From a virus, in IMG/VR virus record IMGVR_UViG_3300030406_001718, positions 1 to 27,730 of that record: 27,730 nt of DNA; one strand, 5' to 3'. Position 1 is the first letter of the stretch. Each line of letters begins with the position of its first letter. The notes beneath the pieces were generated by a model. It was not told where the DNA came from. It saw only the letters and a list, made by a program, of their open reading frames with translations, and did no database searches. A program made the translations under genes and the position numbers. Shown here one piece after another: positions 2,908-24,574 of this stretch.

Positions 2908-2932
2908 TAAATATAAAAAAAGTGCATTTTGT
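2908..2932 (-). promoter_or_regulatory. Candidate late promoter ahead of portal operon
   Basis: Reads AAACAAAA-N11-TATATTTAT on the minus strand, matching four other copies in the window with 16-17 bases from ACAAAA to the TATATTTA box. It lies directly downstream of the terminator at 2944-2968 and 11 bases before the ATG at 2896, the arrangement expected when one transcript ends and another begins. Confidence 0.6.
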
Positions 2933-2943
2933 TTAGTAATTAA

Positions 2944-2968
2944 CAAAAAAAAGGCACAATTAGTGCCT
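2944..2968 (-). terminator. Rho-independent terminator after the major tail gene
   Basis: On the minus strand a perfect 6-bp stem (AGGCAC / GTGCCT) with a 5-base loop (TAATT) is followed by at least eight T residues. It lies 31 bases after the stop of the 201-aa major tail protein gene and directly before a candidate promoter. Confidence 0.8.
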
Positions 2969-2998
2969 CTTTTCTGATTAAAAAATAAAGTAACGATA

Positions 2999-3604
2999 TT
3001 AAGTACCTACTACGAATGCTATGTCTGCAACATCTGTCAAATTATCCCAAGGATAGTTTGTAGTGCTTGCACCTGCTGTCGGTTGTACTTGTATAGGTGG
3101 CAGTTTTTCGTCTGCACTAAACTCTACTGTATAACCTGACAATTCACCTTTTGCTGCACCTGTAACCATTGTCCCCCCTGTCACATTTACACCACCATTC
3201 ATACCTAGCAAAAATATATTATCCATAGAATCACGAACAAATATTTGACTTCTGTTATATGCTGCAAGTCTTAGTTGGTTAGTGCTGTCGTGATTTATTT
3301 TTTGTAAAGTTATAGATAGTGTCTGATTAAAAAATGTTGTTCCTGTTGCAGGGTCTGATGTAATATTTACAGTCATAGAACTTAAATCAGGTCTTAAATC
3401 GTACTGTAATAAAGTTTGTTTTGATGATGTAGGGTCACCGAATGTGTCCCAATCAGCAAAATCTGCATCAGTCATCTCTAAATTTGCTATTGTAGCAGAT
3501 GCTTCTATATTACTACAAAAATTAGGTAGAATATATATCATTTTAAGACCACCGATACTGTCTTTACAGTCTACTTTTCTTCCAAGTGTTAAATTACAAG
3601 CCAT
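2999..3604 (-). CDS. Probable major tail (tube) protein
   Basis: The 201-residue product begins MACNLTLGRKVDCKDSIGGL, an opening I associate with an abundant structural protein, probably the tail tube subunit, in Bacteroidetes siphoviruses. The body is beta-rich with Thr/Gly-rich loops (MNGGVNVTGGTMVTGAAKG near 134-152), as in tube proteins, and has no signal peptide or membrane segment. It lies just after the major capsid gene and is bracketed by two hairpins, one upstream (3625-3653) and one downstream (2944-2968), giving it its own transcript end. This is consistent with very high expression. A head decoration protein is the alternative. Confidence 0.65.
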   Translation of the reverse strand: MACNLTLGRKVDCKDSIGGLKMIYILPNFCSNIEASATIANLEMTDADFADWDTFGDPTSSKQTLLQYDLRPDLSSMTVNITSDPATGTTFFNQTLSITLQKINHDSTNQLRLAAYNRSQIFVRDSMDNIFLLGMNGGVNVTGGTMVTGAAKGELSGYTVEFSADEKLPPIQVQPTAGASTTNYPWDNLTDVADIAFVVGT

Positions 3605-3624
3605 TTGATTTAAATTTATAAGTT

Positions 3625-3653
3625 AATAAAAGGGTGGTATATTGCAACCACCC
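3625..3653 (-). terminator. Hairpin with U-tract after the capsid gene
   Basis: On the minus strand a perfect 7-bp GC-rich stem (GGGTGGT / ACCACCC) with an 8-base loop is followed by TTTTATT. It lies 15 bases after the capsid stop. No separate promoter is evident before the next gene, so it may act as a partial terminator (attenuator) or as a 3' stabiliser for the capsid message. Confidence 0.7.
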
Positions 3654-3667
3654 ATTTAAAGTTCATT

Positions 3668-4669
3668 TTAGAATGTGCAACCAACAACTCCGTCAGTTCC
3701 TATTCCTGTTTGTACACCTAAACCAAAGTTCATAACTACTCTAATCTTATCACTTCCGTCATACTGATATGTAGGAATTAAGATTGCCTCAGTTCTGTCA
3801 GTTCCTAAGTTAGAACCTACAACTAAGTTGTCAGAGTAAGTTGCAACGATAGCATCGTCTGGCATACCTGGACATCTGTATATTGGGTGTCCTAAGTATG
3901 AAAGACCTTCAGGGTTAAGTGTTAAACCTAACATATTAATACCTTGACCTGATGCTACACCTGCTAAAAATTGTGAATAAAAACTATACATCTTATTATT
4001 CATATAGAATCCAAAACCTTCTTTAAACTCTAATCCAGGGTGATTAGCTACAACTGAGTCATAAACACTTTTAAGTGCATCGTCAATATTTGCATTTGTT
4101 GTTGCAGAACCAGAATTTAAGGTAACTTGTGTAAAGTCAGCACAAGCAGAAGCATTAAGACCTGATTGGTCAAACACTCCGTCATTTGATAAAAACCCTG
4201 CACCCATAATGTTATTAGCATCTGCAACCCAAATACCATTTTCAATTTGTGCTGAAGCTTGACCTGCTACGACCTCTAATATGAAATCAGAAAAATCACC
4301 AGGTAAATCACCATTTTGTGTCATATTCTTACCAACCCAAGTAGGATAAAGTGTTTTTCTACACACCTCTCTGTTTACTTTAAGGTCTGTTACTGTTAGC
4401 ACTCTTTCGCCAAGTGTAGTAGTACCTGCATCGTTAAAATCACAACCTGCTGCTACAATAGGATCAGAAGTTACTAAACTACTAATTACGGCTTTACTTG
4501 TAAGTCCGTCCATTTGTCGTACATAACCTTTCGCAATCGTGTCATTTGATTTGACTGCAGCAGTTACATACGGCAATGCTTGTTCACCTGCATATGTAGT
4601 TGCAGGGTTTACTGTGATATCAAAATCACGTTTTTTGCTCACTGGAGCATATCTATTATGTTTTGCCAT
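3668..4669 (-). CDS. Major capsid protein (HK97-like)
   Basis: The 333-residue product follows the scaffold gene by nine bases, the usual place for the capsid protein. Features seen: a basic N-terminus (MAKHNRYAPVSKKRDFD), a helical middle (ILEVVAGQASAQIENGIWVADANNIMG split over about 130-156), a domain with GFGFYMNNKMYSFYSQF near 218-234, and a C-terminal stretch with GHPIYRCPGMPDDAIVATY near 256-274. The length fits HK97-fold capsid proteins. It builds the icosahedral shell together with the protease and scaffold upstream. No crosslinking residues can be assigned by eye. Confidence 0.85.
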   Translation of the reverse strand: MAKHNRYAPVSKKRDFDITVNPATTYAGEQALPYVTAAVKSNDTIAKGYVRQMDGLTSKAVISSLVTSDPIVAAGCDFNDAGTTTLGERVLTVTDLKVNREVCRKTLYPTWVGKNMTQNGDLPGDFSDFILEVVAGQASAQIENGIWVADANNIMGAGFLSNDGVFDQSGLNASACADFTQVTLNSGSATTNANIDDALKSVYDSVVANHPGLEFKEGFGFYMNNKMYSFYSQFLAGVASGQGINMLGLTLNPEGLSYLGHPIYRCPGMPDDAIVATYSDNLVVGSNLGTDRTEAILIPTYQYDGSDKIRVVMNFGLGVQTGIGTDGVVGCTF

Positions 4670-4678
4670 TTTTAAAAA

Positions 4679-5353
4679 TTATTTATTATTAATAAAGTAT
4701 GCTGCCCTCTCGCTTACAGAAAGTTTAGCCAAATCAATAGTAGAATTAACATTATTACCTTCAGGGTTGTATGTTATACTTTCCTCTGCAGGTTGTCCTG
4801 ACAATTCTACTATTTTACTATTAAGTTCTTCAACTTGTGTCATAAGTTCACCTATAATATCTTCAGAAGCCATTTCAGTTTTTTCTTCTACTTCTGCTTC
4901 TTTTGTTTCTTCTACTTCTTCTTCTGATGACATCTCTTCTACCTCTTCAACTTCTTCAGACATTTTGTCTTTTTTCTTTTTCATCTCTTCAATCTCTTTT
5001 TCAAGGGCAGACAATCTTTTTTCTATACTGTCCTCTTCTTGCATTTCTTCTTTTTCATCACCTGCTTCTACTTCTTCAGGTGCATCTGCCTCTTCGCCTA
5101 AATCAGCAATTTCAGAATTTTCATTTATAGACATTTTACTGCCATTTTCCATTGTGTATTCACCTGCTGCAAGTGGTTCTGCATCTCCGTCATCATTAAT
5201 TGCAAATACTTTTGAGCCAATTTCAAATTGGTCGTCCTCAGTAGCTATAACTCTGCCGTCATCTAGAATCATTTCAGCATACATTTTAACTTTGTATGAT
5301 TTAGGTTCTTTTTTCATTTTTAAGATATTTAAGATTTTTTCTATTGTATTCAT
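4679..5353 (-). CDS. Capsid scaffolding protein
   Basis: A 224-residue, strongly acidic protein. The middle (about 80-165) is a run of Glu/Lys heptads (ALEKEIEEMKKKKDKM, EEVEETKEAEVEEKTEM) predicted to be coiled coil, followed by another helix (LMTQVEELNSKIVELSG). The C-terminus (LAKLSVSERAAYFINNK) is a short helical tail of the kind that binds capsid protein. Composition, length and position between protease and capsid protein all point to the internal scaffold, which is removed during maturation. A candidate promoter lies eight bases upstream of its start. The antisense strand carries a long open frame that is only a shadow of the Glu-rich codons. Confidence 0.8.
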   Translation of the reverse strand: MNTIEKILNILKMKKEPKSYKVKMYAEMILDDGRVIATEDDQFEIGSKVFAINDDGDAEPLAAGEYTMENGSKMSINENSEIADLGEEADAPEEVEAGDEKEEMQEEDSIEKRLSALEKEIEEMKKKKDKMSEEVEEVEEMSSEEEVEETKEAEVEEKTEMASEDIIGELMTQVEELNSKIVELSGQPAEESITYNPEGNNVNSTIDLAKLSVSERAAYFINNK

Positions 5354-5361
5354 ATCATTTA

Positions 5362-5386
5362 TAAATATAAATTGTTGTTATTTTGT
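5362..5386 (-). promoter_or_regulatory. Candidate late promoter ahead of scaffold/capsid genes
   Basis: Minus strand reads AAACAAAA-N11-TATATTTAT, eight bases before the ATG at 5353, in the 45-base gap after the protease gene. If the box works as a -7 element the transcript would be nearly leaderless. Confidence 0.6.
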
Positions 5387-5398
5387 TTAATTCTTTTT

Positions 5399-6382
5399 TT
5401 ATTTGCCGTATTTTTTCTTGATAGTTCCACACACTTTTTGTGCTATTTTTTTATCACCATATGCTTCTATTTGGTCTTTCATACACTGATTCCAAGAATA
5501 CTTTTCTAATGCTTGTTTTTTTGCATATGCTATATACTCTAACATTTTATATTTTCGCTTTCTTTTCTTCTTTTTTTTACCTTTGTGATACAACTCCTCT
5601 TTCATTGTAGCCTCAGAATGGTCAGTACAAGCCATATAAAGTCTCTCTCCGTCTAAGGTGTGTATGTGGCTTCCTGAACAAGATTTAAACATCTCGCCAT
5701 ATATTTCTGCTTCTTCTTTTGTTCTGAATAGTGGCTCTCCGTCCATTTCGGCAACAGGGTTAAGTTCGTTTTGCAAAATAACATCTTTAATTTTGTTTAG
5801 TGTTATTTCATCTAAGCAATCTACACAATCTTCTTTTTTAGGTTTAGATGCTTCTATAAGTTTGTCTGTAAACCAACCCTCAATACTAAAACCTCTTACC
5901 TCTTTGTTCTTTATTTTTTCCCACACTTCATTGTTATTTTCTACACTTACCTGTACAAACCAAGTTCCAATTGGCATATTCTTAAAACCCCACATATTAG
6001 ACTTGTCATACTTTTCATCTTCTTTGATCCAAGACTCTACAACTGTAAGTCCTTGTATTTTCTCTTGATGTTCTAATGTATGGTTATTATTATTAAGATT
6101 TTCCATAAACAGCTTCTGTGCTTGTGCAATAGTTTGTTTAGTAAAAAACACATCATACTCTTCGTTTGTTTCTTTGTCAAATCTAGGTATTTTCTTGTCA
6201 GGAATAAGGACTGCACCTACAAGTTGCTTTTTTTCTTCGTCAAACTGTGCTAATGATAGAAAATCGTTGTTAAAAAATACAAAGTTCTCTTCTATTGCTG
6301 GAAATTTAACAACAGAAATGGCTTCTACACCAAATATCTCTGCTGTCTCGTCAATAACTAATTCAATTAATTTTTTCTTCAT
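5399..6382 (-). CDS. Prohead protease (XkdF/U35-like) with extension
   Basis: Probably the maturation protease that cuts scaffold and capsid. The N-terminal 175 residues resemble the XkdF/prohead protease group: LVGAVLIPDKKIPR (54-67), a His region NHTLEHQEKIQGL (100-112), VESW (115-118), and KEVRGFSIEGWF (160-171). H101 or H105 and S166 are candidate catalytic residues. The remaining ~150 residues are unusual: a Cys/His segment (CSGSHIHTLDGERLYMACTD, about 235-254), a Lys/Arg-rich stretch (KGKKKKKRKRKYK), and a C-terminal WNQCMKDQIEAYGDKKIAQK / VCGTIKKKYGK helix pair. That last motif recurs at the ends of various phage head proteins. The gene lies upstream of scaffold and capsid, the expected order. 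Confidence 0.75.
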   Translation of the reverse strand: MKKKLIELVIDETAEIFGVEAISVVKFPAIEENFVFFNNDFLSLAQFDEEKKQLVGAVLIPDKKIPRFDKETNEEYDVFFTKQTIAQAQKLFMENLNNNNHTLEHQEKIQGLTVVESWIKEDEKYDKSNMWGFKNMPIGTWFVQVSVENNNEVWEKIKNKEVRGFSIEGWFTDKLIEASKPKKEDCVDCLDEITLNKIKDVILQNELNPVAEMDGEPLFRTKEEAEIYGEMFKSCSGSHIHTLDGERLYMACTDHSEATMKEELYHKGKKKKKRKRKYKMLEYIAYAKKQALEKYSWNQCMKDQIEAYGDKKIAQKVCGTIKKKYGK

Positions 6383-6387
6383 ACTAA

Positions 6388-6411
6388 TAAATATAAAAAT
6401 TTCTGTTTTGT
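6388..6411 (-). promoter_or_regulatory. Candidate late promoter ahead of protease gene
   Basis: Minus strand reads AAACAAAA-N10-TATATTTAT in the 34-base gap between the tape measure and protease genes. The box ends only five bases before the ATG at 6382. Confidence 0.6.
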
Positions 6412-6416
6412 TTAAA

Positions 6417-8102
6417 TTACAAGGTTGCTTGTAAGTCTAATTCTTCTTGTAGTGCTTGTGCATTGCTTATTTCGTTTTCTACTACAAAAGCCTGTACAGG
6501 ACTAGGTGAACCTAATTGTGGTTGGTCTATTGCTTCTATATTAGGTGTCAATGCACCTACACCTTGTTCTGCAACTGCTGTTTGCACATTATCAGGTGTA
6601 TCTAAATTACCACCACCTCCAACTTTTTTAAATACTGCTTTTGCTTGTGCTATGCCTGACAATACAGATGCTACACCTGTTGCAATAGCACCTAAATTTG
6701 CAGGAAATACTAAACCTGCACCTGCTGCAATTGCACCTGATATACCTCTTGCAGTGTCTATTAATATGCTTGTCAATGCTGTTGCTTTTGCAATTTGTGT
6801 TCCTTCACCTGCTAATTGACTTACTGATGACAAAATATCTTTAGCTGCACCTACTCTAAGTGCTTTATCTGCTGCAATTTTAGCCTCTGTAATTTTTAAT
6901 TCTTTTTGTGCTTCATCTACTAAAATAGCAAGTCTTTCATCACTAATATTTTTTGCAAATTCTAACCCTAATTCGGCAGCTTGTGTTTCTAAGTCTAACC
7001 TGGTTTGTCTTTTTGTTGCAATTTCTTCGTCTAAATCTTTTTGTTCTTGTAATAATGCATTTTGATTTAATAATTGTTCTGATTGAAAACCTGTAACTTT
7101 TGCTTGTACTGCTAATTTTTCAGTTTCTAATGCAAAAATTTCATTTCTTAATTGTTGACTGTCACCTTCTAATTTTATACGATCATTTAATGCTTGAATT
7201 TGTGCATCAATAGCATCTTGTTCGGCTTGATTCTGTTCTAATAATACATCAGCAAGTTTTTCGTTTGCCTCTATTCTTTGTTCAATAGTAAGTGTTGTGT
7301 CGTCTCTTTGCTGTCTTAGTATTTCTGCTTCTCTGTCAAATTGCTCTACTAATCTTTGTTGTTGCAATGCTAAAAGCTCATAGTTTTTTCTTGTTTCTGT
7401 TATTGCCTTACCTTGTTGTATAATACCTTCTACTGTAACTCCTTCAAAAGTTTCTTTAAAGCTATCAACTGCAACTTTACCAATGTTTTTTACTTCATCA
7501 ACACCTTCTTTAAAATCTACTACTATTTCTTTACCACTTTGTATAGCTTGTTCACCAGCCTCTTTTATACTTGCTTTAGTAGCATTAATATCTGCTGTTA
7601 ATTTTTCAATTTTGTCTGCATCTTTGCCACCAAACATAGATTTTTCAAAAGCTAACATTGCTGATTGTATACCTAGCTTAATACCTTGAAATGCTAATTT
7701 TAGTGGTGTTAGTGATATATCTAAAACATTCTTAGCAATTCTACCTAAAGCATCAAAATTTTCACTAGATTTAGAAACAGCATTAATAGTGCCAACAATT
7801 GCATCAGTCACTAATTTAAATGCTACACCGATAGAATTAAATACTGTTTCAACAGTATCTGCAATTGCCTCGTTTTGCATTAATGACTCAGACAATCTGT
7901 CAAAAGCCTTTAAAACTATACTAATACCAATTCCTTTAAATGCTAATCCTACACCTTTAAAACCTTTTGCAATACTATTAGCTGATTTTTCTGTTTTTTT
8001 TGAAGTCTCTCCTAACTCCTTAACATTTTTTTCTAGTGCATCTAATCTTTTTAATGCCTCCTCAGCATCCATTGTTATTTTTACTGTTCTTTCTATCGCC
8101 AT
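6417..8102 (-). CDS. Tail tape measure protein
   Basis: The 561-residue product has the features of a tape measure protein, which sets tail length and sits in the tail lumen. It has an N-terminal coiled coil (MDAEEALKRLDALEKNVKEL), then Gly/Ala/Ile-rich hydrophobic helices (GFKGVGLAFKGIGISIVLKA), and a long central coiled coil of Gln/Glu/Ala heptads about 230-420. The C-terminus is Ala/Gly-rich (about 440-490) with a hydrophobic SGAIAAGAGLVFPANLGAIA stretch common to tape measure C-termini. It is short for the family; at the usual ~1.5 angstrom per residue it implies a tail of roughly 80-90 nm. It overlaps the preceding 57-aa gene. It comes after the large tail genes instead of before them. 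Confidence 0.8.
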   Translation of the reverse strand: MAIERTVKITMDAEEALKRLDALEKNVKELGETSKKTEKSANSIAKGFKGVGLAFKGIGISIVLKAFDRLSESLMQNEAIADTVETVFNSIGVAFKLVTDAIVGTINAVSKSSENFDALGRIAKNVLDISLTPLKLAFQGIKLGIQSAMLAFEKSMFGGKDADKIEKLTADINATKASIKEAGEQAIQSGKEIVVDFKEGVDEVKNIGKVAVDSFKETFEGVTVEGIIQQGKAITETRKNYELLALQQQRLVEQFDREAEILRQQRDDTTLTIEQRIEANEKLADVLLEQNQAEQDAIDAQIQALNDRIKLEGDSQQLRNEIFALETEKLAVQAKVTGFQSEQLLNQNALLQEQKDLDEEIATKRQTRLDLETQAAELGLEFAKNISDERLAILVDEAQKELKITEAKIAADKALRVGAAKDILSSVSQLAGEGTQIAKATALTSILIDTARGISGAIAAGAGLVFPANLGAIATGVASVLSGIAQAKAVFKKVGGGGNLDTPDNVQTAVAEQGVGALTPNIEAIDQPQLGSPSPVQAFVVENEISNAQALQEELDLQATL

Positions 8103-8266
8103 ATTAATCTTATTAATTGTTTTGCCATTCTTCTAAAACTTGTGTGATATTCTTCCATACCATATACAAAATCTAATTCTTTGTCTTTATACTCAACTAA
8201 CTGTATATGGTCAATTGTATGTATAATTAGTTTAGATGTTGCTTTTATATATTTTTCTAATTCCAT
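8093..8266 (-). CDS. Small hypothetical protein before tape measure, 57 aa
   Basis: A short gene that bridges the only gap in the tail cluster. Its product starts MELEKYIKATSKLIIHTIDH, contains YKDKELDFVYGMEEYH, and ends MAKQLIRLIWR. Its ATG overlaps the end of the 1158-aa gene by 10 bases and its stop overlaps the start of the tape measure by 10 bases, the packing seen throughout this genome. It is helical and mildly basic. Position suggests a small tail assembly factor, but no family is recognised. Confidence 0.65.
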   Translation of the reverse strand: MELEKYIKATSKLIIHTIDHIQLVEYKDKELDFVYGMEEYHTSFRRMAKQLIRLIWR

Positions 8267-11200
8267 AATAAATATTCGCCATTTTGTAAATCTATTTGCA
8301 CTGAATTTTGGAACAGTGCATAAGTTTCTGAGTAACTTCTCTCAATATTATACACATTGTTTATATCTATATCTACTGTTAGTTGCCATACTCTTTGTGT
8401 GTCTGTTTGACTATCTTGTAAACCAAATTCTATACTTCTGCCCTCATTTAATATGCTCAATGTACAAGTTTGTGGGTTAGTACCTTCTTTTAAAGAAAAC
8501 TCAGGCACACCACCTGCTGTTCCTAATTGTGTTACAATTGCTGCTTTGTCTATAAATGCTGTGTAGTATGCAAACCCTTCTAAAGTGCCTAATGTAAATG
8601 TACTACTTGTGCCACCAATTACAGTAGCAGTACCTTTTACTCTAATTAATACATTTGAATTTATAGGTATTTGTATTTGCTTTTTAGTAGAATCTCCTTG
8701 TGTATAGGCGTAACCCTTAGTATTGCCTGTTGTGTAACCAATAAGCACTATTCTATGCGATTCTCCGTCTATTTGTGGTTGTCTTAAACTATAATTTTTA
8801 TATTTTATAACTATGTCATCACCTTGTTTAGGCATAATGCTTCTTGACAATTTGCCTGTATTTGTACCGATCATTAGTGGTTGATTTTTACCAAACACTT
8901 TACCACTGTATATAGACCTGCCTGTACCTGAGCTAAATAATTTTCTATTATCAAGTGTGTTTTGTAGTCTTGCAGGTAAGCTGTTAGAATTAGCTAAACA
9001 AGGGTATAGATTTTGACTTTGTAAAAATGTAAATTGGAATTGTGTCTCGCCACCTACACACTCACAACACTCTGGACTAACATAAATTGAATCAGGAAAT
9101 GTAAAAGCCTGTGTAGGGTTGCTTGTTGGTGCAAAAATATAATATCCGAAGACTGTATTGCTTCCGTTTATATCTGCTACAACAGAATCACAAGCAAAAC
9201 AAGAGCCATTATATTTCTGGTTAGATTTTAGCAATGTTACTTTTGTACTTGCATTTACACCTACCTGGTAGTTGCTTATATCTAAAACTCTATAATATGC
9301 ATCTTTTAAAAATATTTCGTCTGCAAAACTAAAATTAAATATGTCTGTTTCGTTAAGGTTTATATGACATTCTAATATTCTTGCCTCTTGTCCATAAATG
9401 TCATTTAAATAAGGATACCAATATTTGTTAAACAAACCATTAGGGTTATTATTTAATGCAGTCCAATTAAACACCTGCAACTGTCCACATACCGGCCCAT
9501 TTTGATTAAAATACAATGATCTCGTTGATGCTAAAATTGTTGATGTTCCGTCAGCATTTGGTGTCAAGTCGTAAGGACTACACAAAGGGTATGTTGGAAA
9601 TGCAATTGCAGTAATGACACCAGTTCCAGGGTCTGTCTTATGTAAATATATATTTGTGTCTACACCATAACTTTTAATTGTCGTAGGTGAGCCGTTATAA
9701 AAAAACAATTTTGGTTTTGTAGGCTCTAATACATTTTCTGTGCCTGTATCTGTCTCTTTATATGTCCATTCGTATTGTGTAGCTACATTAGTAAGCACTG
9801 TGTCTTCATCGACATCAACACTTGTAAATATTTTTTCGTTTATGTAAGGTGCAAATATTGAAAAGTTTTCTAGATTACCTTTAGCAAATTCATTAAATGT
9901 TGTTGTCTGTCTAAAAATACCATAAGGGTTTAAACTAGGTGTGCTTTCTGATATTGATTTATTTAACAAGTCTACATCTTCCTTGTCTTTGTATATAATC
10001 TGTTGTTTTTGTAAACTACTTGTATCTTTAATTACTAACTCTTTAGAAGTGTCTAATTTGTCAGACCAATGCAAAAGGTCGCCACTTGCTGCAAAGTCGT
10101 TGTAAGGCTCTATAATTAGCTTAGTTGCATCATCTGAGTCAGCTACAACTACTAAATTAAATCGTTGTATAATGTCTTTAATAAAATCTTTCTGTGTTAT
10201 CTCAGGGTCTATGCACTGGTCTACATCAATTATGTTATCGTATATATTGCCACCATAGCCTGTCCACTGTGCAGATATCTCATTAAATGCACCATTAAAC
10301 ACAAATAAAGATGTAGTGCAACTTGTAGAGGGGTTTGTTAGCCAACATTGTGAACCACCTATGACAATAGTACCTGCACCACCACTTAACTGATACCTTC
10401 TGTATAATCTGTGTTGAACTCTAAAGTAACAACTTTCACCTTCATCTAAATTATTTAAGTCCATATTAAACTCAAGGTTTCTATATCTTATACCTGCTGA
10501 ACCTGCACCAAACACTTCACCATATATAGTTTGTGCATTAACTAAGTTGTCAGGGTCATCAACATCACCTGTTGTTTTTCGTATTTCAACAGTAACAGGA
10601 AAATCTTGATTTTCATCTAATGCACCCTCGCTTATTGATGCATTTGCCGGCCAAATATTTTGGGTTTTCATTACAAACCTAACTTTGACTTGATTTAAAT
10701 TACTTGATACTTTTGTCAATGTCATATTTGTAGTGTCCCAAGCATTTCCTGGGTCGCTAGGCATTGTAAAACCTGTTATTGCTGTGTCTGTATTAGCTTG
10801 TATAATAGTCCAAGGTGTGTCGTATTGTACAGAATTATCAGAAGCATCGACTGTATATGTACCCCACTCAACATCGTTACCAACCATCATCTGTCCGTCT
10901 AAAGCAAAAGCACTTTGCCTTTCAACAGGGTTAGGCATTCCTGTATGGTTTGCAGTTGTCATAAATAGCTTTCCAAAATAACTGCCGTTTATAAAATTAC
11001 TTGTATAAGAAAAACCTGCTTGTGCAATAATTTTTTTAAATAACTCTTTTAACTGTATTGCAGGTTTTAGTTGTGTTATATCTACTTTTTTGTTATTAGG
11101 ATCGTCATTAGCACTAACATTACTCATTCCTAAGTAATTATTTGTAGTGTCATAAAAAGAATTAGGTCTTGTAAAGCTTAAAGGGTACATTACTTTTTGA

Positions 11201-11733: not shown

Positions 11734-13247
11734 TATGAATTTGTGTTTCTTTCGTTTGCATACTCAATCTCTATTGTGTATTGTATAAGACTGTCATTAA
11801 CAATTGTTTTTCTTATGTGACTACTGCTGGTGATAATTACAGGTTCTGTTGTGCTTGTATCTGCATTTTCAACTACAAAAACATTTTGTGTCATTATAAG
11901 TTTCTCTAATAAGTTTGCATCTGCTTCTGTTATGTAATCTGTGTTTAGTGTCTCTTTCAACACTGCTTTTGTTTGTCTGACTGTTTTGCCTCTTTGCGAA
12001 TTGTCGTACCTGTATTTAGATTTGTTAAAAACACCAAGCATACTACCAAAAGTGTCTTTTGTAACATTTATTGTCTGTGTAGATTTTAGACTAAAATTAA
12101 AGTAATCATATGCACCTAAACTATTTCTAAATGCTAACCTTCTAACTTTATAATTTTTACAGCTTCCGTCAGACTTTATAAAATAATATACTTGTGACCT
12201 AGCAACTAAAATATTAGAAACAGCTTGTACTGTATAGAATGCATAATTAGTATTGTTAGAGGGTTTTGCATTTGTTATGAGTGTCTGTGCTTCTAAATTA
12301 GCTAAACCACAACCAAAGTATAATAACCTGTGCTTATCCTCTTTTGCTATGTTTGGTGTTACACTTGTGTCTGTTGTAACATTAGCATTAAAACCACCAT
12401 TACTAGCTAAATTAGAAAAGTAATTAGTCGATATTAATGTGCCGTCTGATTGAAAAAATTTTACTGCAATAAAACCAACATTACAATCTAGGTCTGCTGT
12501 GCCATTAAGAAAAGCGATTGTGTGATAATCTGATGACTGCAATCTAATGTATCTTCGTACACCACCCTCTACACTGAATTGTGTTTCTACATCTGATAGA
12601 AATTTAGCAGTAGTGTTATCGTGCTGAAAATCTTTAAATTGATCCCCCTGTATATATGTCGAGTCGTAAGACGAAGATGTGCTAATAAAACTTCTTGCTG
12701 TTGTTATAGGCAAAGATGCTTGTATATAGTATAGTGTTTCACTTACTGCACCTGATGTGTCTTCAGTCGGTGATGCACTTGCACTATTACTTGACTCTTC
12801 ATATCCTCTTACAGTTATAGATGATAATTGTGTTTTACCTGTATCTCTGTCGCCACTATGAGAAAAAATTTTATCTAACACACCTGTATTAGCACCTAAC
12901 CTGTGTATACTTTCAAAAGGTAGTCCGTCTTGGTTTTGGTCGTTCTCTGTATCTACTAATTGTGTGTTTACAATTTTGCCTATGTCAAAAAATGCTCTTG
13001 CTTTGTTGTTAGATATGTCATCACTATATCCGTTTCTTCTTTGCTTCATTTTAGCTATTAATGTGCCTTGAGAGCCGTCAAATACTGTCACTGTACCTTT
13101 CCAAACTTCCATAATTAGTTTATAGTAAAATAATGAAGATATGTTTGCATCCTTGAATAACATATACCCTATTAGTGGTGTCCAGTTTGTTATTACAGGT
13201 AACTTTAATGTGCTGTTTACTGGTTTTTGATGTAATGATAAACTCAT
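11733..13247 (-). CDS. Tail protein, 504 aa
   Basis: The 504-residue product starts MSLSLHQKPVNSTLKLPVI and is beta-rich. It contains WKGTVTVFDGSQGTLIAK (49-66), RAFFDIGKIVNTQL (83-96), and a long Ser/Thr-rich middle. The C-terminal part has EKLIMTQNVFVVENADTS and ends IEYANERNTNS. There is no membrane or signal segment. It lies between a neck-like protein and the 1158-aa tail protein with a one-base spacing on one side and a one-base overlap on the other. A distal-tail or baseplate role is likely; the exact family is not identified. Confidence 0.65.
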   Translation of the reverse strand: MSLSLHQKPVNSTLKLPVITNWTPLIGYMLFKDANISSLFYYKLIMEVWKGTVTVFDGSQGTLIAKMKQRRNGYSDDISNNKARAFFDIGKIVNTQLVDTENDQNQDGLPFESIHRLGANTGVLDKIFSHSGDRDTGKTQLSSITVRGYEESSNSASASPTEDTSGAVSETLYYIQASLPITTARSFISTSSSYDSTYIQGDQFKDFQHDNTTAKFLSDVETQFSVEGGVRRYIRLQSSDYHTIAFLNGTADLDCNVGFIAVKFFQSDGTLISTNYFSNLASNGGFNANVTTDTSVTPNIAKEDKHRLLYFGCGLANLEAQTLITNAKPSNNTNYAFYTVQAVSNILVARSQVYYFIKSDGSCKNYKVRRLAFRNSLGAYDYFNFSLKSTQTINVTKDTFGSMLGVFNKSKYRYDNSQRGKTVRQTKAVLKETLNTDYITEADANLLEKLIMTQNVFVVENADTSTTEPVIITSSSHIRKTIVNDSLIQYTIEIEYANERNTNS

Positions 13248-13248
13248 A

Positions 13249-13806
13249 TTATGTTCCTATTTGTATGTCAATAATGTTTTCTAAATCGTCTGCAAACCCA
13301 TTTACAATATTGTCTGTTTGCTTGTTAAGTTGCTCTGTCAATGGTTTAGTAAAAAATTGTGTTCTCTCCAAACCTCTTTGTGCTATTGCTCTTCCTATTA
13401 AAAATGATGCACTTCTAATGTTTTTTTGGTTTTTTTGTATAAACCTACCTGTCTTTAGGTCTCTAAGGTTTATAGGCTTGTTTGCAATCCATTTTTCTAC
13501 AACACCTTCTGCTATATTTTTTTTCTTAAATTTAAAGGGACTTCCTTGACCTCGCATTTTACCACTGCCTTTAAAACCACCACTACCTTTTACACCTTCG
13601 TCTACAAAGTCCCAATAATCTTCTGCACCACCAAATTCAAAAATTATACTAACACTTTTATTGTCAGATTCTACTAAGTAATCAAAGTCATTGTACAATG
13701 TGTTGCCTTTAGTTGTTTTTTTCTTTTTTACCAATATTGCTTTACCTTCTTCTACAACTTTTGCACCGAGTTTCTGCATTGCCTGTATAGTGTTTTCTAA
13801 TTTCAT
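13249..13806 (-). CDS. Neck / HK97-gp10-like tail completion protein
   Basis: A 185-residue basic protein. It has MKLENTIQAMQKLGAKVVEE as an N-terminal helix, YNDFDYLVESDNKSVSIIFE in the middle, and Gly/Lys-rich loops (KGSGGFKGSGKMRGQGSP, about 73-90). A later helix carries FLIGRAIAQRGLERTQFFTK, and the C-terminus is LNKQTDNIVNGFADDLENII. The N-terminal helix, central sheet and C-terminal helix ending in a F(L/I)xxAI-like stretch resemble HK97 gp10-type proteins. It abuts the tail terminator-like gene (one-base overlap), a usual pairing. Confidence 0.6.
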   Translation of the reverse strand: MKLENTIQAMQKLGAKVVEEGKAILVKKKKTTKGNTLYNDFDYLVESDNKSVSIIFEFGGAEDYWDFVDEGVKGSGGFKGSGKMRGQGSPFKFKKKNIAEGVVEKWIANKPINLRDLKTGRFIQKNQKNIRSASFLIGRAIAQRGLERTQFFTKPLTEQLNKQTDNIVNGFADDLENIIDIQIGT

Positions 13807-14297
13807 TATGTGTTATGTGTTAAAGGTGCAATACACAAGTTGTTTTGATTGTTTACCTCTATAGTTATAGTTGCACTCCAGCCTGTCAATAAATTATTAA
13901 ATCTTGCTGTAAAAGGCTCACAATTGACAGGTAATTGCAAGACAACTTCATCTGTAACCCAAGATTGTGAGGACAAACTTTGCTTAAATTCTGCAACAAC
14001 ATCTTGCAATATCCTAAAGGTTTCTGAGTATGTTGTTGTTCTTCCTAATCTCTCTTTATTAGGTTCTGCACCTACTTCTTCGTTAATTTGGTCTAGTATG
14101 TATAATGTAAAAGAATATGTTAGCAGACCTGTGTCTAATGTTGCTGTACCAGGCTCTGCATATAGTATAACATAATCTTTAGCACCTAACTTATTTATAT
14201 CTGCTTCATCTAGACCACCACTGTGAAAAGATTTAATCTGAAAATGTTTAGTAGCTATCGTTTCAAAATAACTAATTACATCACTATACCTTACCAT
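13806..14297 (-). CDS. Tail terminator / completion protein
   Basis: A 163-residue protein starting MVRYSDVISYFETIATKHFQ. It has an alternating helix and strand layout (KDYVILYAEPGTATLDTGL; LLTYSFTLYILDQ) that resembles tail terminator proteins, which form the last ring on the tail tube and join it to the head. It overlaps the frameshift product of the chaperone by 14 bases upstream and the neck-like gene by one base downstream. Assigned from context and fold pattern, not by alignment. Confidence 0.6.
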   Translation of the reverse strand: MVRYSDVISYFETIATKHFQIKSFHSGGLDEADINKLGAKDYVILYAEPGTATLDTGLLTYSFTLYILDQINEEVGAEPNKERLGRTTTYSETFRILQDVVAEFKQSLSSQSWVTDEVVLQLPVNCEPFTARFNNLLTGWSATITIEVNNQNNLCIAPLTHNT

Positions 14298-15029
14298 AAT
14301 TGTTTTTCATTTTATTATTATAATCTTGTCTATAAGACAAAAAAGTTAAAACAGTCAATATAGGCAATTCTGTCACCTTGTCTATATTTAATATGTTACC
14401 CTCACACAAACTATACAAAGTGTTATACCAACCCCATTTACTTTGCATCGTTACACCTTTTGCTGTGTCTGATTCAGAGCTTCCAAATAACTGTGCGAAG
14501 TCTGTGCTAATTTTTCTCCGATAGTCAAAAAAAAACCTAGCGAACCTAGTGCTATATCCATTTTGCAAAGTTTAAACAACTCTTCTTTAAACAGTTCTGG
14601 ATCGTAGCTTTCTATTGCATACCTATCGCCTCTTTTTAATTTTACCTTTCTGTACAATATGCTCATTATTATATGCAAATTCTCAATAGGCTCTTTGCAA
14701 TAAGTCTCTAAATCAATATATTCACCTGTCGTCATTTTAGACATATTAGGTATAAAACCATACTGTTCGCCTTCAATGTCTATTAACTTTCTAAATTTTT
14801 CTTTGTCAGGCTCTTGGTCTACTAAGTCCCTTAATGTTTGCATAATAAAGACTAAATCACTGTAAGGCATTGCCTTGACTATTTTATTTGTAGTGTTACA
14901 CAACAATGCAACACTTCTAATAATCTTATTTTTTTCTGACCCTTTACCATTCTGTATTTTTACATACTTTTGATAGGTTTCTATCGTAATGTCAGACCAC
15001 TCTTCAGGTATTACTAATTTAACTTCCAT
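14284..15029 (-). CDS. Tail assembly chaperone, frameshifted GT form
   Basis: A predicted -1 ribosomal frameshift product of 248 aa: residues 1-167 from the upstream frame, then 81 residues from the overlapping frame ending at 14284. The mRNA reads GGT TTT TTT TTG, giving a perfect X_XXY_YYZ heptamer (T_TTT_TTT, within the T9 run at 14527-14535). After slippage the codons TTT GAC TAT enter the second frame. The second-frame part (SKWGWYNTLYSLCEGNILNI and following) looks like the T part of G/GT chaperones, which load the tape measure protein. The second frame has its own ATG at 14568, but a separate 94-aa product is less likely. Confidence 0.75.
14451..15029 (-). CDS. Tail assembly chaperone, G form
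   Basis: The 192-residue unshifted product starts MEVKLVIPEEWSDITIETYQ and is mostly helical (YSDLVFIMQTLRDLVDQEPD; EYIDLETYCKEPIENLHIIM). It is the first gene after the large terminase and follows an 82-base gap with a palindrome and a candidate late promoter. In lambda-like phages the short form is made in excess over the frameshifted form, and both help assemble the tail around the tape measure. Here it lies about 6.3 kb from the tape measure gene, not beside it. Confidence 0.75.
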   Translation of the reverse strand: MEVKLVIPEEWSDITIETYQKYVKIQNGKGSEKNKIIRSVALLCNTTNKIVKAMPYSDLVFIMQTLRDLVDQEPDKEKFRKLIDIEGEQYGFIPNMSKMTTGEYIDLETYCKEPIENLHIIMSILYRKVKLKRGDRYAIESYDPELFKEELFKLCKMDIALGSLGFFLTIGEKLAQTSHSYLEALNQTQQKV

Positions 15030-15036
15030 TTATATA

Positions 15037-15060
15037 TAAATATAATTTTTTTTGTTTTGT
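15037..15060 (-). promoter_or_regulatory. Candidate late promoter ahead of tail operon
   Basis: Minus strand reads AGACAAAAC-N9-TATATTTAT, with 16 bases from ACAAAA to the box, as in the other copies. It lies seven bases before the ATG at 15029, so the transcript would be nearly leaderless. The first box deviates at one position (AGAC for AAAC). Confidence 0.55.
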
Positions 15061-15097
15061 CTTTTTTTTTTAAATATAGGCATATAAAAACCTAATA

Positions 15098-15118
15098 AAT
15101 GTAAAATTATTTTACATT
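15098..15118 (-). terminator. Palindrome overlapping the terL stop
   Basis: A perfect 21-base palindrome, AATGTAAAAT-T-ATTTTACATT on the plus strand, that includes the last codons and stop of the large terminase gene. In RNA it can form at least a 7-bp stem. On the minus strand it is followed by TATTAGGTTTTTATATG. It may be a weak terminator ahead of the promoter at 15060 or a protein-binding site. The A/T-only stem makes it weaker than the hairpins at 2.9 and 3.6 kb. Confidence 0.4.
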
Positions 15119-16269
15119 ATATAATATTTGCCACTATGATTAATGCTTAATCTATTTAAACACAAGTATCTAGTTGCATCTACTAAATGGTCGTTTACTT
15201 TTACTGGTGTGTTTAAAACATTACCATTTTTGTCTGTTGCCCATTTATAGCCTCTAAATTCTTTTATTGCATTTAGACTGTCTTTTGTTATGTGCAACTT
15301 GTATCTTCTCATTATATCTATGCCTAAGTGTATACCTGCACCCTTCTTTGCAGGCTTTATATTAAACCCTTGTCTGTATATCTCTTCTATTGACTTAGGT
15401 TCAGCACTGTCGCCTACTATTTCAGTTTGTCTGCTTATACCTAATTGCTTCATCTTATTTGCTAAATCAGTATTTGTTAATCGCTTTTCGTACAACAGTT
15501 CTTTAATGTATAAGTTGTCATCTTGTTGCCTGACCTCTACAAGTGCCGTAGGACTGTTTGTAAAGCCAAAGTCTAAACCATAACCTATTAGTCTACCTTG
15601 TACGTCATCAACTAAATTAAAGTTTCTAAATATCATAGTTTGTATTGTACCTATCTCACCAAGTCCATACACACGCCAATAGTCAGGGTCTATGTCTTTA
15701 AGTCTTTCTATTTCTGCAATAGTGTCGTCATCTAAAAAAGGATTTGCCTGGTATGTAGATTGCAAAAATGTGCAGTCATCTCTTGTGTGTACTTTCTCGT
15801 AAATCCAACTATAAGGATCGCTTGGGTTGTAGTCAAGGTAAATTTTTTCTGTTGTTCTTAAAATTAGTTGTTGCCAATCTTCATAAGTAAATTCGTTAGC
15901 TTCGTTACACCACAAATAGTTTCTTTTACGACCTCTTATTTTTTGTGGTTGGTCTACGCTGATAAACTCTAATATATTGCCATTTAGTTGATAAGATAGT
16001 TCTGACTTGTTGTGATTTGCTTCGTCATATAGGTCTAACTCTTTTAGTATGTTAAGAACATCACGATAGGCAGTACCTTTTAGTGCAGGTAGTGTTTTAC
16101 GACATATAGTAAATACTTTACCTGTTTCTTCTAAGCATTTGACTATAAACAATTGACAAAGCGAATAGGTCTTAGAGCTACGTGTCCCCCCTTGTAGACA
16201 GGTAATCCTAGTTGTAGACCTATACGCCTTGTTAAATACATTTGTTGTTTTAATCTTTCCCCGTGTCAA
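15112..16269 (-). CDS. terL: Terminase large subunit
   Basis: The packaging motor ATPase and nuclease. In the 385-residue product the ATPase has a Walker A GGTRSSKT (27-34) and Walker B-like YLWCNEANE (118-126). The C-terminal nuclease has acidic residues in GLDFGFTNSP (D233), GDSAEPKS (D287) and HLVDATRY (D364), the pattern of PBSX/T4-type terminases (Terminase_3/6C). Length is at the short end for the family but all motifs are present. It overlaps the small subunit gene by 20 bases. HNH and ParB-like genes lie just upstream. Confidence 0.95.
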   Translation of the reverse strand: MTRGKIKTTNVFNKAYRSTTRITCLQGGTRSSKTYSLCQLFIVKCLEETGKVFTICRKTLPALKGTAYRDVLNILKELDLYDEANHNKSELSYQLNGNILEFISVDQPQKIRGRKRNYLWCNEANEFTYEDWQQLILRTTEKIYLDYNPSDPYSWIYEKVHTRDDCTFLQSTYQANPFLDDDTIAEIERLKDIDPDYWRVYGLGEIGTIQTMIFRNFNLVDDVQGRLIGYGLDFGFTNSPTALVEVRQQDDNLYIKELLYEKRLTNTDLANKMKQLGISRQTEIVGDSAEPKSIEEIYRQGFNIKPAKKGAGIHLGIDIMRRYKLHITKDSLNAIKEFRGYKWATDKNGNVLNTPVKVNDHLVDATRYLCLNRLSINHSGKYYIM

Positions 16270-16597
16270 TAACTTCTATTTTTAGTTCAGTAAGTGCTTT
16301 GCCACCACTTGTTATATCTACTTTCTCTGCATAACCTCTATCTCTTGCCTTAGATTTTAAATAAAATATTATACTTGTTTCTTTGCCTCTAGCTATGTTT
16401 TTTATTAGTTCTCCCTCTACATAGTCTATCTGTGCCTCTTGTATTTCTTTTACTGCTTTTGCAAATTCCTCGTCCTCTCGCATATATCTATAGTATGTCG
16501 ACCGACTTATGTTACCTGCCTTTTTACACGCGTGATATATTAGTCCCTGGGTCTCTGCTAATGCTTTTAATAATTTATCTTTTTTATTCTGTGCCAT
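16250..16597 (-). CDS. terS: Terminase small subunit
   Basis: A 115-residue helical protein with an N-terminal helix-turn-helix (LAETQGLIYHACKKAGNISR then STYYRYMREDEEFAKAV) and a central coiled helix (EIQEAQIDYVEGELIKNIAR). The C-terminus KARDRGYAEK is typical of small terminase subunits. It recognises the phage DNA and hands it to the large subunit. Its gene overlaps terL by 20 bases and follows the ParB-like gene with a five-base gap. Confidence 0.85.
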   Translation of the reverse strand: MAQNKKDKLLKALAETQGLIYHACKKAGNISRSTYYRYMREDEEFAKAVKEIQEAQIDYVEGELIKNIARGKETSIIFYLKSKARDRGYAEKVDITSGGKALTELKIEVIDTGKD

Positions 16598-16602
16598 TTG
16601 TA

Positions 16603-17106
16603 TTATTTTATGGTTACATTGTAACCTTGTTCATTTAAACTATTGTACAGTTCAAAAGCCTTTATTTCGTCTTGCTCTTTTACTGTTATTATACTTACAT
16701 TATTATTGTCTTCTTGTATTTTATCTACATTTAACCCTAAATCAATATGCTTAAAACCCCAATCTACTAAATTATCTATGTCAAACTCATTAGCAAGTAT
16801 ATCAATATCAAACTCACCTGTGTTTTTATTAAGCCTTATATTTAGTTCTCTTTCTTGTTCTTTGTTTAAGTTTAATATAATACAAGCTATATCTGTATAT
16901 CCTAGTTCTTTACATATTTTTAAACGTTGATGCCCACCTATGACTACAAAAAAGTTTTCTGTAAAGTATTCATTAACTATAATAGGATCAACTAAACCAA
17001 ACTTTGTAATTGATTTTTTTAAATCGTTGTATTGCTTTGTGCTAATCTGTCTTGGGTTGTATGTTGCAGCTCTAAGTTTGCTAATTTTGATTTTTTCTAA
17101 TTGCAT
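16603..17106 (-). CDS. ParB/Srx-like nuclease-domain protein
   Basis: A 167-residue protein with the ParB N-terminal fold: KISKLRAATYNPRQIS (7-22), LKKSITKFGLVDPIIV (29-44), and the signature VVIGGHQRLKICKELGY (54-70), containing the GxHR-like GGHQR nucleotide-binding motif. The C-terminal half (ILANEFDIDNLVDWGF) is typical of phage ParB-like proteins that sit next to terminases, often fused to or paired with DNA methyltransferases. There is no partner ParA, so partitioning is unlikely. A packaging or DNA-processing role is an inference from position. Confidence 0.8.
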   Translation of the reverse strand: MQLEKIKISKLRAATYNPRQISTKQYNDLKKSITKFGLVDPIIVNEYFTENFFVVIGGHQRLKICKELGYTDIACIILNLNKEQERELNIRLNKNTGEFDIDILANEFDIDNLVDWGFKHIDLGLNVDKIQEDNNNVSIITVKEQDEIKAFELYNSLNEQGYNVTIK

Positions 17107-17383
17107 CTAGTTTTTTATTTAAATTTATAAGTGCATATATTTGCTCACAAACGACTTGCAAATGTTGTATTCTGCAATACGAATTAAAACAACTGTCTGT
17201 TTCTGCTTTTATGTGGCAATCTCTACATAATGCTATTAAATTTTCTACAAAATCGTTTTTAGTTTTATTTCTTTTTTCTAAGTGGTGTAGATCGACTGCA
17301 ACGGCAGAACACATTTCGCATAATATTGTGTCTGACTTATCATAACCAAAAAAGTCAAAATATACTTTAGTGTGGTTTTGCAT
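17081..17383 (-). CDS. HNH endonuclease
   Basis: A 100-residue HNH protein: a CxxC zinc pair (C22, C25), the VDLHHLEKR core (H33, H34), N48 in ENLIALC, and CRDCH (C53, C56, H57). These are the full set of zinc-binding and catalytic positions. HNH proteins encoded beside terminase are often needed for cutting packaged DNA in cos-type phages; that use here is inferred. It overlaps the zinc-ribbon gene upstream by 17 bases and the ParB-like gene downstream by 26 bases. Confidence 0.85.
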   Translation of the reverse strand: MQNHTKVYFDFFGYDKSDTILCEMCSAVAVDLHHLEKRNKTKNDFVENLIALCRDCHIKAETDSCFNSYCRIQHLQVVCEQIYALINLNKKLDAIRKNQN

Positions 17384-17510
17384 CTTGCATTTCTTTTAAC
17401 CTGTCTTTCTCACAGGTAATTAAAAATTTACTATTACAAAAAAAACACTTACCTTTTTTTAAAAGAGTCATTCTTGTACAACCACAACAAAACCTAAATA
17501 CTTGATTCAT
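17367..17510 (-). CDS. Small zinc-ribbon protein, 47 aa
   Basis: The product starts MNQVFRFCCGCTRMTLLKKG and continues KCFFCNSKFLITCEKDRLKE. The CCGC and CFFC pairs (C8/C9/C11 and C22/C25) form a classic zinc ribbon. It is bounded by 17-base overlaps with the 120-aa gene upstream and the HNH gene downstream, which fits a real translated gene. It may bind DNA or RNA polymerase like other tiny phage zinc ribbons; this is not shown. Confidence 0.7.
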   Translation of the reverse strand: MNQVFRFCCGCTRMTLLKKGKCFFCNSKFLITCEKDRLKEMQDAKPH

Positions 17511-17856
17511 TTTTACAACTATTATTATACACTTCTAACAAATTGTCTACTGTTGTCTTGACACAAGGTGAACAGGATGACACTTGTTTGTTTGTTTTAA
17601 ATATTCTATTATATATGTTTAGTAATATTTTTTGCTCATCTTTTTTTAAAACACCTTTGTCAATACTTGGCTTTACCTCTTCAAAAATTTTAATTTCATC
17701 ATCTGTCATCTGCCTTACATAAGGAAACATTTTATTAAGTTTTTTTCGTCTTTCTTCACAACCACAATCTTCACCTAATATTTGTTTAGCTACCTTATCT
17801 ATGCCTGTTTTTTTGGTAATTTTTTTTATAGTATCTCCTAATCCTTTGCTTACCAT
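17494..17856 (-). CDS. Cys-pair protein, 120 aa, unknown function
   Basis: The product starts MVSKGLGDTIKKITKKTGID, then GEDCGCEERRKKLNKMFPYV (C31, C33), and ends with QVSSCSPCVKTTVDNLLEVY (C95, C98). The two Cys pairs, 62 residues apart, could form one metal site. The opening looks conserved among Bacteroidetes phages in my memory, but I know no function. It lies between the sigma-like gene and packaging genes, with overlaps on both sides, so it may belong to the middle/late switch. Confidence 0.7.
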   Translation of the reverse strand: MVSKGLGDTIKKITKKTGIDKVAKQILGEDCGCEERRKKLNKMFPYVRQMTDDEIKIFEEVKPSIDKGVLKKDEQKILLNIYNRIFKTNKQVSSCSPCVKTTVDNLLEVYNNSCKNESSI

Positions 17857-17933
17857 AGTTTAAATATTAAATAAATTATAATTGATGTGCTTACGATAAA
17901 CATAAATTGGTCAAATTGATTTTTATATTTCAT
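17850..17933 (-). CDS. Tiny membrane peptide, 27 aa
   Basis: A 27-residue peptide (MKYKNQFDQF then MFIVSTSIIIYLIFKLW). Its C-terminal two thirds form one hydrophobic segment. The ATG overlaps the sigma-like gene's stop as ATGA, and its stop lies inside the start of the 120-aa gene. Both junctions suggest translational coupling and a real gene despite the length. Function unknown. Confidence 0.55.
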   Translation of the reverse strand: MKYKNQFDQFMFIVSTSIIIYLIFKLW

Positions 17934-18427
17934 TTTTTTATAAATTTTTTTACTTTATTTAATGTGTGATATATTGTGTTTCTATTTATTTTTGTTTCTG
18001 CACTTAAAGAATTAAGACTGTGGTCTTTTGTGTAGTATAACTTAAATATTTGCGAATCAAACCAGTGACACTGCTCTAACTTTTTTTTTATTTTATTTAT
18101 GTAGTATTGTTTTTTTTCAGACTCGTTATCATTTGATATACTTGTTGTAATGCTGTCATTTATTTCTGTTACTGCCAAGCTATAATATTTTTTGTACTTG
18201 TAATAAAACCTGCTTGTCTTAGAAAAATATTGATTTATCATAATTCTAGCTACATAAAATGTAAGTTGTTTTTTTACAATTAGTTTGTTAAGTTTTTTTT
18301 GATCTGCATTGTATAACTCTTCAACTACAAAACTAAACAAGTCATCTTTATCAGAGTTGCCACCTGTGACATTATATGCCATATCTTTTAATTTGTCATA
18401 ATTGTCAATCAGGTATTTGTCTAACAT
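17930..18427 (-). CDS. Sigma-70-like transcription factor
   Basis: A 165-residue protein with a divergent sigma-factor layout. A region-2-like N-terminus has LIDNYDKLKDMAYNVTGG and DKDDLFSFVVEELY (about 27-40), with RIMINQYFSKTSRFYYKYKK following. A C-terminal region-4-like helix-turn-helix is seen in HSLNSLSAETKINRNTIYHT. Such small sigma-like proteins occur in many Bacteroidetes phages. It sits between early genes and packaging/structural genes, the place for a late-gene activator. A copy of the bipartite element lies about 110 bases upstream of its start, so it may control itself. The N-terminal part is too divergent to be sure it recruits RNA polymerase. Confidence 0.7.
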   Translation of the reverse strand: MLDKYLIDNYDKLKDMAYNVTGGNSDKDDLFSFVVEELYNADQKKLNKLIVKKQLTFYVARIMINQYFSKTSRFYYKYKKYYSLAVTEINDSITTSISNDNESEKKQYYINKIKKKLEQCHWFDSQIFKLYYTKDHSLNSLSAETKINRNTIYHTLNKVKKFIKK

Positions 18428-18702
18428 ATTTTTATTACTGAGGGTATTTTTTCTTGTTTCATTAAATTATATTCTACATTTGACATTCTGCTTGTGTGTA
18501 TTTCTATAATATTGTCAAATCTACTGTGCAATTTATTATAAATATAATTTAGTGTGCTTTTGTTTTTTTTCAAATCTCTCAAAATAAAATGTAAGTTAGC
18601 ACCACTATCAAATAAAATTGTAAACAGGTAGTTGTTAGTATCTATGTAGTCCCAGTGCAATCTGTCGTGCCTTGTATTAAAAAATGTTGGTCTAACTTTC
18701 AA
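18421..18702 (-). CDS. Hypothetical protein, 93 aa
   Basis: I recognise no family. The product starts MKVRPTFFNTRHDRLHWDYI and contains TILFDSGANLHFILRDLKKN and IIEIHTSRMSNVEYNLMKQE. It looks like a small alpha/beta soluble protein. It overlaps the downstream sigma-like gene by seven bases and the upstream methyltransferase by four (ATGA). A candidate promoter element lies inside it (18539-18563). The gene may be co-expressed with the sigma-like factor. Confidence 0.65.
   Translation of the reverse strand: MKVRPTFFNTRHDRLHWDYIDTNNYLFTILFDSGANLHFILRDLKKNKSTLNYIYNKLHSRFDNIIEIHTSRMSNVEYNLMKQEKIPSVIKIC
18539..18563 (-). promoter_or_regulatory. Candidate promoter upstream of sigma-like gene
   Basis: Minus strand reads AAACAAAA-N11-TATATTTAT, with the same spacing as the copies in intergenic gaps, but here it lies inside the 93-aa gene, 112 bases before the sigma-like ATG. 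If used, it would let the sigma-like factor drive its own gene. Being inside coding sequence, it is less certain than the others. Confidence 0.4.
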
Positions 18703-22524: not shown

Positions 22525-22926
22525 TTAATTGTTATTTCTTTTAAATGACTCACTTTCATCTTCGCCAAAAACACCAAGTTCGTAAAAACCTGCTAATTTA
22601 AGGACGGCTCTACTCAAACTTCTCTTTTCTGCCATTTCCATTACATACCAACTATTAGTATTTCCGTCTTTAAATGTATTACCTTTTAAAGCACTACCAA
22701 ATGTTTCTATTTTTTTATCACCCATTGTTGCCTTAGCTTTTACTACTGCGAAATGTGGCTCACATCTAATAACTTCAAAGTCAATACTAATATCTATATT
22801 CGCTTGTATCTTTTCAATACCTGCTCTTGTTATTATAGTATAATGTTGATGCTTAAAAACATCTTCGTCTGTTAAATTATTTTCTACAAATAATTTATTT
22901 AATATATCTCTTTTATTCATTGTCAT
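22525..22926 (-). CDS. Probable recombination mediator / Erf-Rad52-like protein
   Basis: The 133-residue product contains LTDEDVFKHQHYTIITRAGI, IDISIDFEVIRCEPHFAVVK, FGSALKGNTFKDGNTNSWYV, and EMAEKRSLSRAVLKLAGFYE followed by LGVFGEDESESF. The AEKRSLSRAVLKLAG motif with a downstream acidic tail resembles small phage single-strand annealing or recombination proteins (Erf/Rad52-type). It overlaps the HTH gene by 14 bases and precedes the OB-fold protein, which would be its natural partner. The family assignment is tentative. Confidence 0.5.
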   Translation of the reverse strand: MTMNKRDILNKLFVENNLTDEDVFKHQHYTIITRAGIEKIQANIDISIDFEVIRCEPHFAVVKAKATMGDKKIETFGSALKGNTFKDGNTNSWYVMEMAEKRSLSRAVLKLAGFYELGVFGEDESESFKRNNN

Positions 22927-23128
22927 TATTATTAGTTAAAAAATCAGTCAAATTAAGGTTAAGTATTCTACACAACCTGTCAGCTTCACTTATTTTAAGT
23001 GTGCCTGGTTCTTTCAGCTTGTTAAGCATTGTAGGATAAGACATATTCATATACTCAGAAAGCTCTACTTTAGATATGTCTTTTTTATACATTGCGTAAG
23101 CTATAAGGCTTTTTATTTTATCATTCAT
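22913..23128 (-). CDS. XRE-family HTH regulator (Cro/repressor-like)
   Basis: A 71-residue protein with one helix-turn-helix: ISKVELSEYMNMSYPTMLNK (18-37), then LKISEADRLCRILNLNLTDF. The size fits a Cro-type regulator with no dimerisation or cleavage domain. It is the first gene of the leftward early operon, next to the divergent control region, so it likely binds there to balance leftward and rightward early transcription. No integrase is present, so a lysogenic switch is unproven. Confidence 0.8.
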   Translation of the reverse strand: MNDKIKSLIAYAMYKKDISKVELSEYMNMSYPTMLNKLKEPGTLKISEADRLCRILNLNLTDFLTNNNDNE

Positions 23129-23238
23129 AGTATTATGTTTTATGCAATTATAATAATAATTTTATATTAAAACAATTTAATACTAATTACTTATTCACAA
23201 TACAAATGTTAATAACTTATTAAGTATTTTTTACCTTA

Positions 23239-24559: not shown

Positions 24560-24574
24560 ATTTTATAAATATAA

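Follow-up and report, generated by a model that had tools for sequence, protein, structure and literature searches.

The question raised by this locus is whether a bipartite element repeated ahead of the late genes of a tailed phage is a promoter and, if so, which sigma factor reads it. The window, by which we mean the whole stretch of 27,730 nucleotides analysed here, is a 27.7-kb tailed-phage record with portal, terminase, protease-like and virion genes on its minus strand. Many IMG/VR contigs are related to it, and those of greater length measure about 27–30 kb; a megablast search of the window against cultured phages returned nothing. As the matches in cellular genomes are two MAG contigs, one of Flavobacteriaceae and one of Winogradskyella, and the best cultured relatives of the portal are the Nonlabens phages P12024S/L, the host is most likely a marine flavobacterium. 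We also noted that residues ~400–550 of the portal-like protein (63–2207, 714 aa) match a stretch annotated as capsid or portal in Roseobacter, Synechococcus and Vibrio phages (up to 59.5% identity); this C-terminal stretch is separate from the actual portal part and has the appearance of a fused domain.

The initial annotation listed five minus-strand copies of the element, and all five were found at its coordinates, each with 16–17 bases from ACAAAA to TATATTTA. A search of the whole window for ACAAAA-N9-13-TATATTTA gave these five copies on the minus strand and none on the plus strand, whereas 300 dinucleotide shuffles gave 0.03 and 0.02 on average, respectively, and never more than one per shuffle. 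Copy 1 (2907–2934, with AAAC at 2934–2931 and TATATTTAT at 2915–2907) precedes the ORF 2738–2896, with the portal gene further on. Copy 2 (5361–5388) precedes the ORF 4679–5353 (224 aa), which is followed by a virion protein gene (3668–4669), and copy 3 (6387–6413) precedes the protease-like gene (5399–6382). Copy 4 (15036–15062) reads AGAC-N16-TATTTAT, its in-register −35-like box thus being AGAC rather than AAAC, and precedes the ORF 14451–15029, directly after the gene for the terminase large subunit. Copy 5 (18538–18565, AAAC-N17-TATTTAT) lies upstream of a sigma-like gene and is discussed separately below.

The first four copies lie 5–11 nt before an ATG, as had been noted. They had also been said to fill the only sizeable gaps of the structural region, which is too strong, as the gap 3605–3667 between two late genes has no copy. 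This gap holds a terminator-like hairpin, GGGTGGTTGCAATATACCACCC, with a T-rich tail, and relatives show a C-rich, T-rich counterpart of it. In some relatives (contigs L209, ~4725, and L213, ~12400) another strong hairpin, for example CCCCCTTGAAATATAGGGGG, followed by a T-rich stretch, stands before the replication-initiation gene, and TATATATTTAACTATG follows. The strong terminator described ahead of copy 1 is present: a minus-strand stem (2952–2968) is followed by a T-run, hairpin and T-run together reading AGGCACTAATTGTGCCTTTTTTTT, and copy 1 lies 20 nt after the terminator. A terminator placed directly before copy 1 means that a fresh transcription start is needed there. The proposed degenerate sixth copy (24566–24589) did not hold up, as it lacks the AAAC box and the orthologous place lacks TTATATTTAT in 10 of 10 near genomes; it is probably due to chance.

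We then asked how the element is distributed in related phages. Among relatives of the window, AAAC-N15-17-TATTTAT precedes 131 of 153 distinct late starts, in contrast to 2 of 1156 other gene starts. The four gene starts that carry it in the window carry it in relatives too; the full pattern is found in 8/8, 27/33, 33/36 and 63/76 distinct orthologous upstream regions for copies 1 to 4, respectively, and at the copy 4 site the box TATATTTA alone is kept in 73/76. The box TTTATATTTAT is near-invariant in relatives, and the bases between the two boxes are variable. A scan with AAACRAAN{8,13}TATATTTAT was positive in 24 of 36 related records, on one strand only within each record, and the reversed pattern, used as a control, gave no match over the 36. 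A host origin of the element was rejected, since two host MAGs showed no enrichment for it (one match versus two control matches).

The spacer between AAAC and TATTTAT was N16 in 119 and N17 in 7 of 126 sites, whereas the distance from the element to the ATG varies from site to site, so that the layout of the element is set by its own two boxes and not by the position of the start codon. This bears on the possibility that it is a translation-initiation signal, an A-rich or AT-rich leader, instead of a promoter. Such a role would suit the four copies that directly precede ATGs, and upstream adenines aid initiation in F. johnsoniae (PMC6847099). It fits poorly, however, with an inner spacing fixed at 16 in 119 of ~131 sites, with its near-absence ahead of the remaining genes in these operons (some 30 gene starts have no copy), with the terminator ahead of copy 1, and with the conservation of copy 5, which has no adjoining start codon. 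On the strength of the fixed spacing and of copy 5 we rejected the translation signal, which we consider highly improbable.

A candidate for the factor that would read the element is encoded on the minus strand at 17930–18427. The 165-aa product has a weak match to PHROG 1740; among 42 members of its family, 24 match Sigma70_r4_2 and 30 match a PHROG sigma family. Its AlphaFold model consists of two confident helical parts joined by a loose linker (pLDDT 86, pTM 0.47). The top PDB folds for this model are sigma factors, mostly of the ECF group (best E 0.016, probability 0.99), although the whole-chain matches are weak (TM about 0.3); the C-terminal part superposes on sigma region 4 at about 2 Å. 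Models of viral proteins are matched with E values as low as 2e-9, and some of these carry sigma names. From the model, the protein is predicted to be an ECF-like sigma factor, a class that has sigma2 and sigma4 as its only domains. A tblastn search of the whole cultured-phage collection with this sigma gave no match at E 0.1, and no anti-sigma gene was identified.

ECF promoters are marked by AAC at −35 and CGT at −10, separated by a 16-bp spacer, and ECF sigmas generally autoregulate (PMC3426412); spacers of 16–17 bp are likewise reported elsewhere (PMC6767563). The first box of the element had been described as unlike the host TTTG, but it resembles the known ECF 'AAC' −35 box at the ECF spacing, and all 126 spacers fall within 16 ± 1 bp. 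The element thus shares with ECF promoters the AAAC box, the spacer, what is probably a two-domain sigma and, in the window phage, probable autoregulation. The difference is in the −10 box, which is TATTTAT in the window clade (otherwise TATTATATA or CATTATATA) and not CGT; a CGT −10 was found only in Nonlabens phage P12024S (Inhavirus).

As in the window phage, P12024S (NC_018271.1) carries AAAC-N16/17-box sites close to ATGs: seven AAAC-N16/17-CGTTA sites (at 146, 2998, 5379, 21248, 23929, 25168 and 26769) lie 11–12 nt before start codons, and the strict form with CGTTAATA, its −10 box, was observed five times versus 0.04 expected. Its gp33 is an annotated sigma-70 region 2 gene, placed shortly before the terminase as in the window phage, although the match of this sigma to the window family is weak (30.8% over 52 residues, E 0.002). 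After this comparison the idea that the first box is unlike any promoter box was dropped. Taking the spacing, the AAAC box and P12024S together, recognition of the window element is best read as being of the ECF type. A Flavobacteriaceae MAG contig (L205) has two CGTTA sites before ATGs, with no clear in-register AAAC.

We compared the late boxes of phages with divergent sigma homologues. Where these are only ~30–34% identical, TATATTTAT is absent from the late sites and another box is found instead: CTATTATATA in clade B, ACATTATATA in clade C and TATATATA in one further record. These boxes sit directly before the ATG, both at the gene that follows the terminase and at further late genes, and in exactly matching examples AAAC lies 16–17 bp upstream of them. 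The distribution of box classes over the sigma tree can be explained with the minimum number of changes. This concordance is suggestive rather than proof, as co-inheritance with few independent changes, or differences between hosts, may produce it. Conservation of the protein does not explain why the −35 box is constant and the −10 box changes, as sigma regions 2.3–2.4 and region 4 show much the same conservation from clade to clade (0.40 versus 0.38).

Host-type promoters are found in the early region of the same phages. In the divergent early region, the −7 box TATATTTG (23264–23271, plus strand) has kept roughly its position: in nearly all relatives examined it lies on the opposite strand, ~128–151 nt from where the repressor-like gene starts, and the leader after it is usually at least about 20 nt long. 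Relatives also keep a stretch, TTATTATTGTNNTATAATTTTAAA (23129–23200), ahead of the repressor-like ORF (22913–23128), which could be an operator or promoter. A scan with the E. coli sigma-70 consensus was uninformative (84 matches versus 70 expected).

The late box TATATTTAT resembles the Bacteroidota primary-sigma promoter TAnnTTTG in its TA..TTT core, but it lacks the final G that the early TATATTTG has, is accompanied by a strong AAAC box and stands almost at the ATG. Might the host primary sigma then read the late promoters through the −7 variant TATATTTA, with the sigma-like protein acting as an activator or remodelling factor? TATATTTA is a single base away from the TATATTTG that these phages use early, and some phages switch on late genes by an activator and not by a sigma factor. 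However, the G, near-invariant in the host box of F. johnsoniae (PMC6847099), is absent from every late box found, the clade B and C boxes are unlike TAnnTTTG, and the model of the 165-aa protein appears to contain both sigma domains. We therefore consider reading by the host sigma improbable.

The restriction to late starts, the fixed spacing and the sigma-like fold best support the reading already offered in the initial annotation, a phage-specific late promoter served by the encoded sigma-like factor. We are quite confident that the element is a class of late promoter served by the phage's ECF-like sigma, predicted to give leaderless or nearly leaderless mRNAs.

The fifth copy requires separate consideration. 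It does lie upstream of the sigma-like gene, as had been reported, but within a conserved 93-aa ORF (18421–18702, minus strand; homologues 53–100% identical in a codon alignment) and not in a gap. The distance from the start of TATATTTAT to the sigma-like gene is 119 nt in 53 of 53 relatives, and the TAT ATT TAT codons of this copy are unchanged in 61 of 61. As the copy is in frame, it could be a by-product of coding for the peptide KNxxxxNYIY, with no promoter at this one site; its AAAC reads AAAT or AGAT in many relatives, and further codons of the ORF are invariant as well. Yet N52-Y53-I54-Y55 (AAT TAT ATT TAT) shows no synonymous change, even though ATT makes up just 38% of the gene's Ile codons, and is the sole run of four synonymously unchanged codons in the ORF. 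Of 49 conserved columns 13 are invariant, and the chance that four pre-chosen columns would all be so is ~0.003 by our own arithmetic, which ignores ancestry. A by-product of coding is thus an unlikely, though not negligible, explanation, and the codon invariance, judged by statistics that leave ancestry aside, likely reflects a constraint at the DNA level. Copy 5 is probably an internal promoter ahead of the sigma-like gene. Codons 21–29 of the same ORF are also unusually constant at synonymous sites (N23 is AAC in 61/61 and I29 is ATT in 60/61 relatives), a hint that the DNA may be under a further constraint there. In the divergent clades the 400 nt ahead of the sigma gene contain essentially no class B boxes, so autoregulation may be peculiar to the window's clade.

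These observations suggest the following scheme. The host sigma would drive the early genes through TATATTTG, giving mRNAs with a leader. The 165-aa sigma, encoded ahead of the terminase genes, would bind the core RNA polymerase of the host and direct initiation to the four late (structural) gene starts. There AAAC would serve as the −35-like box and TATTTAT, part of TTTATATTTAT, as the −10-like box, 16–17 bp apart, in ECF geometry. Use of copy 5 by the same sigma would provide positive feedback and expression of the terminase. In F. johnsoniae transcription starts 4–5 nt after the −7 box, and 87% of leaders are longer than 10 nt (PMC6847099). Applied to the position of the late box, this distance predicts that transcripts from the four late starts would begin ~1–7 nt before the ATG, in hosts whose translation does without Shine-Dalgarno sequences. 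Leaderless mRNAs make up 5.5% in F. psychrophilum (PMC9723704). In this scheme we infer the transcription start, the dependence on sigma, the late timing, the leaderlessness and the autoregulation.

Phage sigma factors with their own late promoters are known from phiEco32 (PMC4331800). Like phiEco32 and 7-11, the window phage appears to use a phage sigma for middle or late genes, a short motif before structural operons and host promoters early (PMC4331800). It differs from them in its hosts and genome type, and in the motif, the consensus there being TAATGTATA as against AAAC-N16/17-TATTTAT here (PMC4331800); neither a homologous sigma nor a TAATGTATA-like promoter was found, and the window phage is thus not of the phiEco32 type. 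The papers searched, which took in few subscription ones, contain no account of a phage sigma controlling late genes in Bacteroidota phages, for which such control is apparently undescribed.

The window thus offers a near-complete, testable regulon, with a sigma, five target sites and a contrast between early and late genes, and the cultured P12024S permits a direct test of the prediction. The motif is also of use for recognising late operons in flavophages known from metagenomes. Several matched pairs of sigma and box are available in which shifts of promoter specificity can be studied, together with a group of mRNAs predicted to be nearly leaderless, although few messages of the hosts are leaderless. 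On balance we slightly favour a broader interpretation, that a widespread lineage of flavobacterial phages uses ECF-type late promoters with truly leaderless mRNAs, in which the −10 box has re-evolved together with the sigma and the AAC of the −35 box has been kept. If true, this would provide a natural series of matched sigma–promoter pairs in a phylum without Shine-Dalgarno mRNAs.
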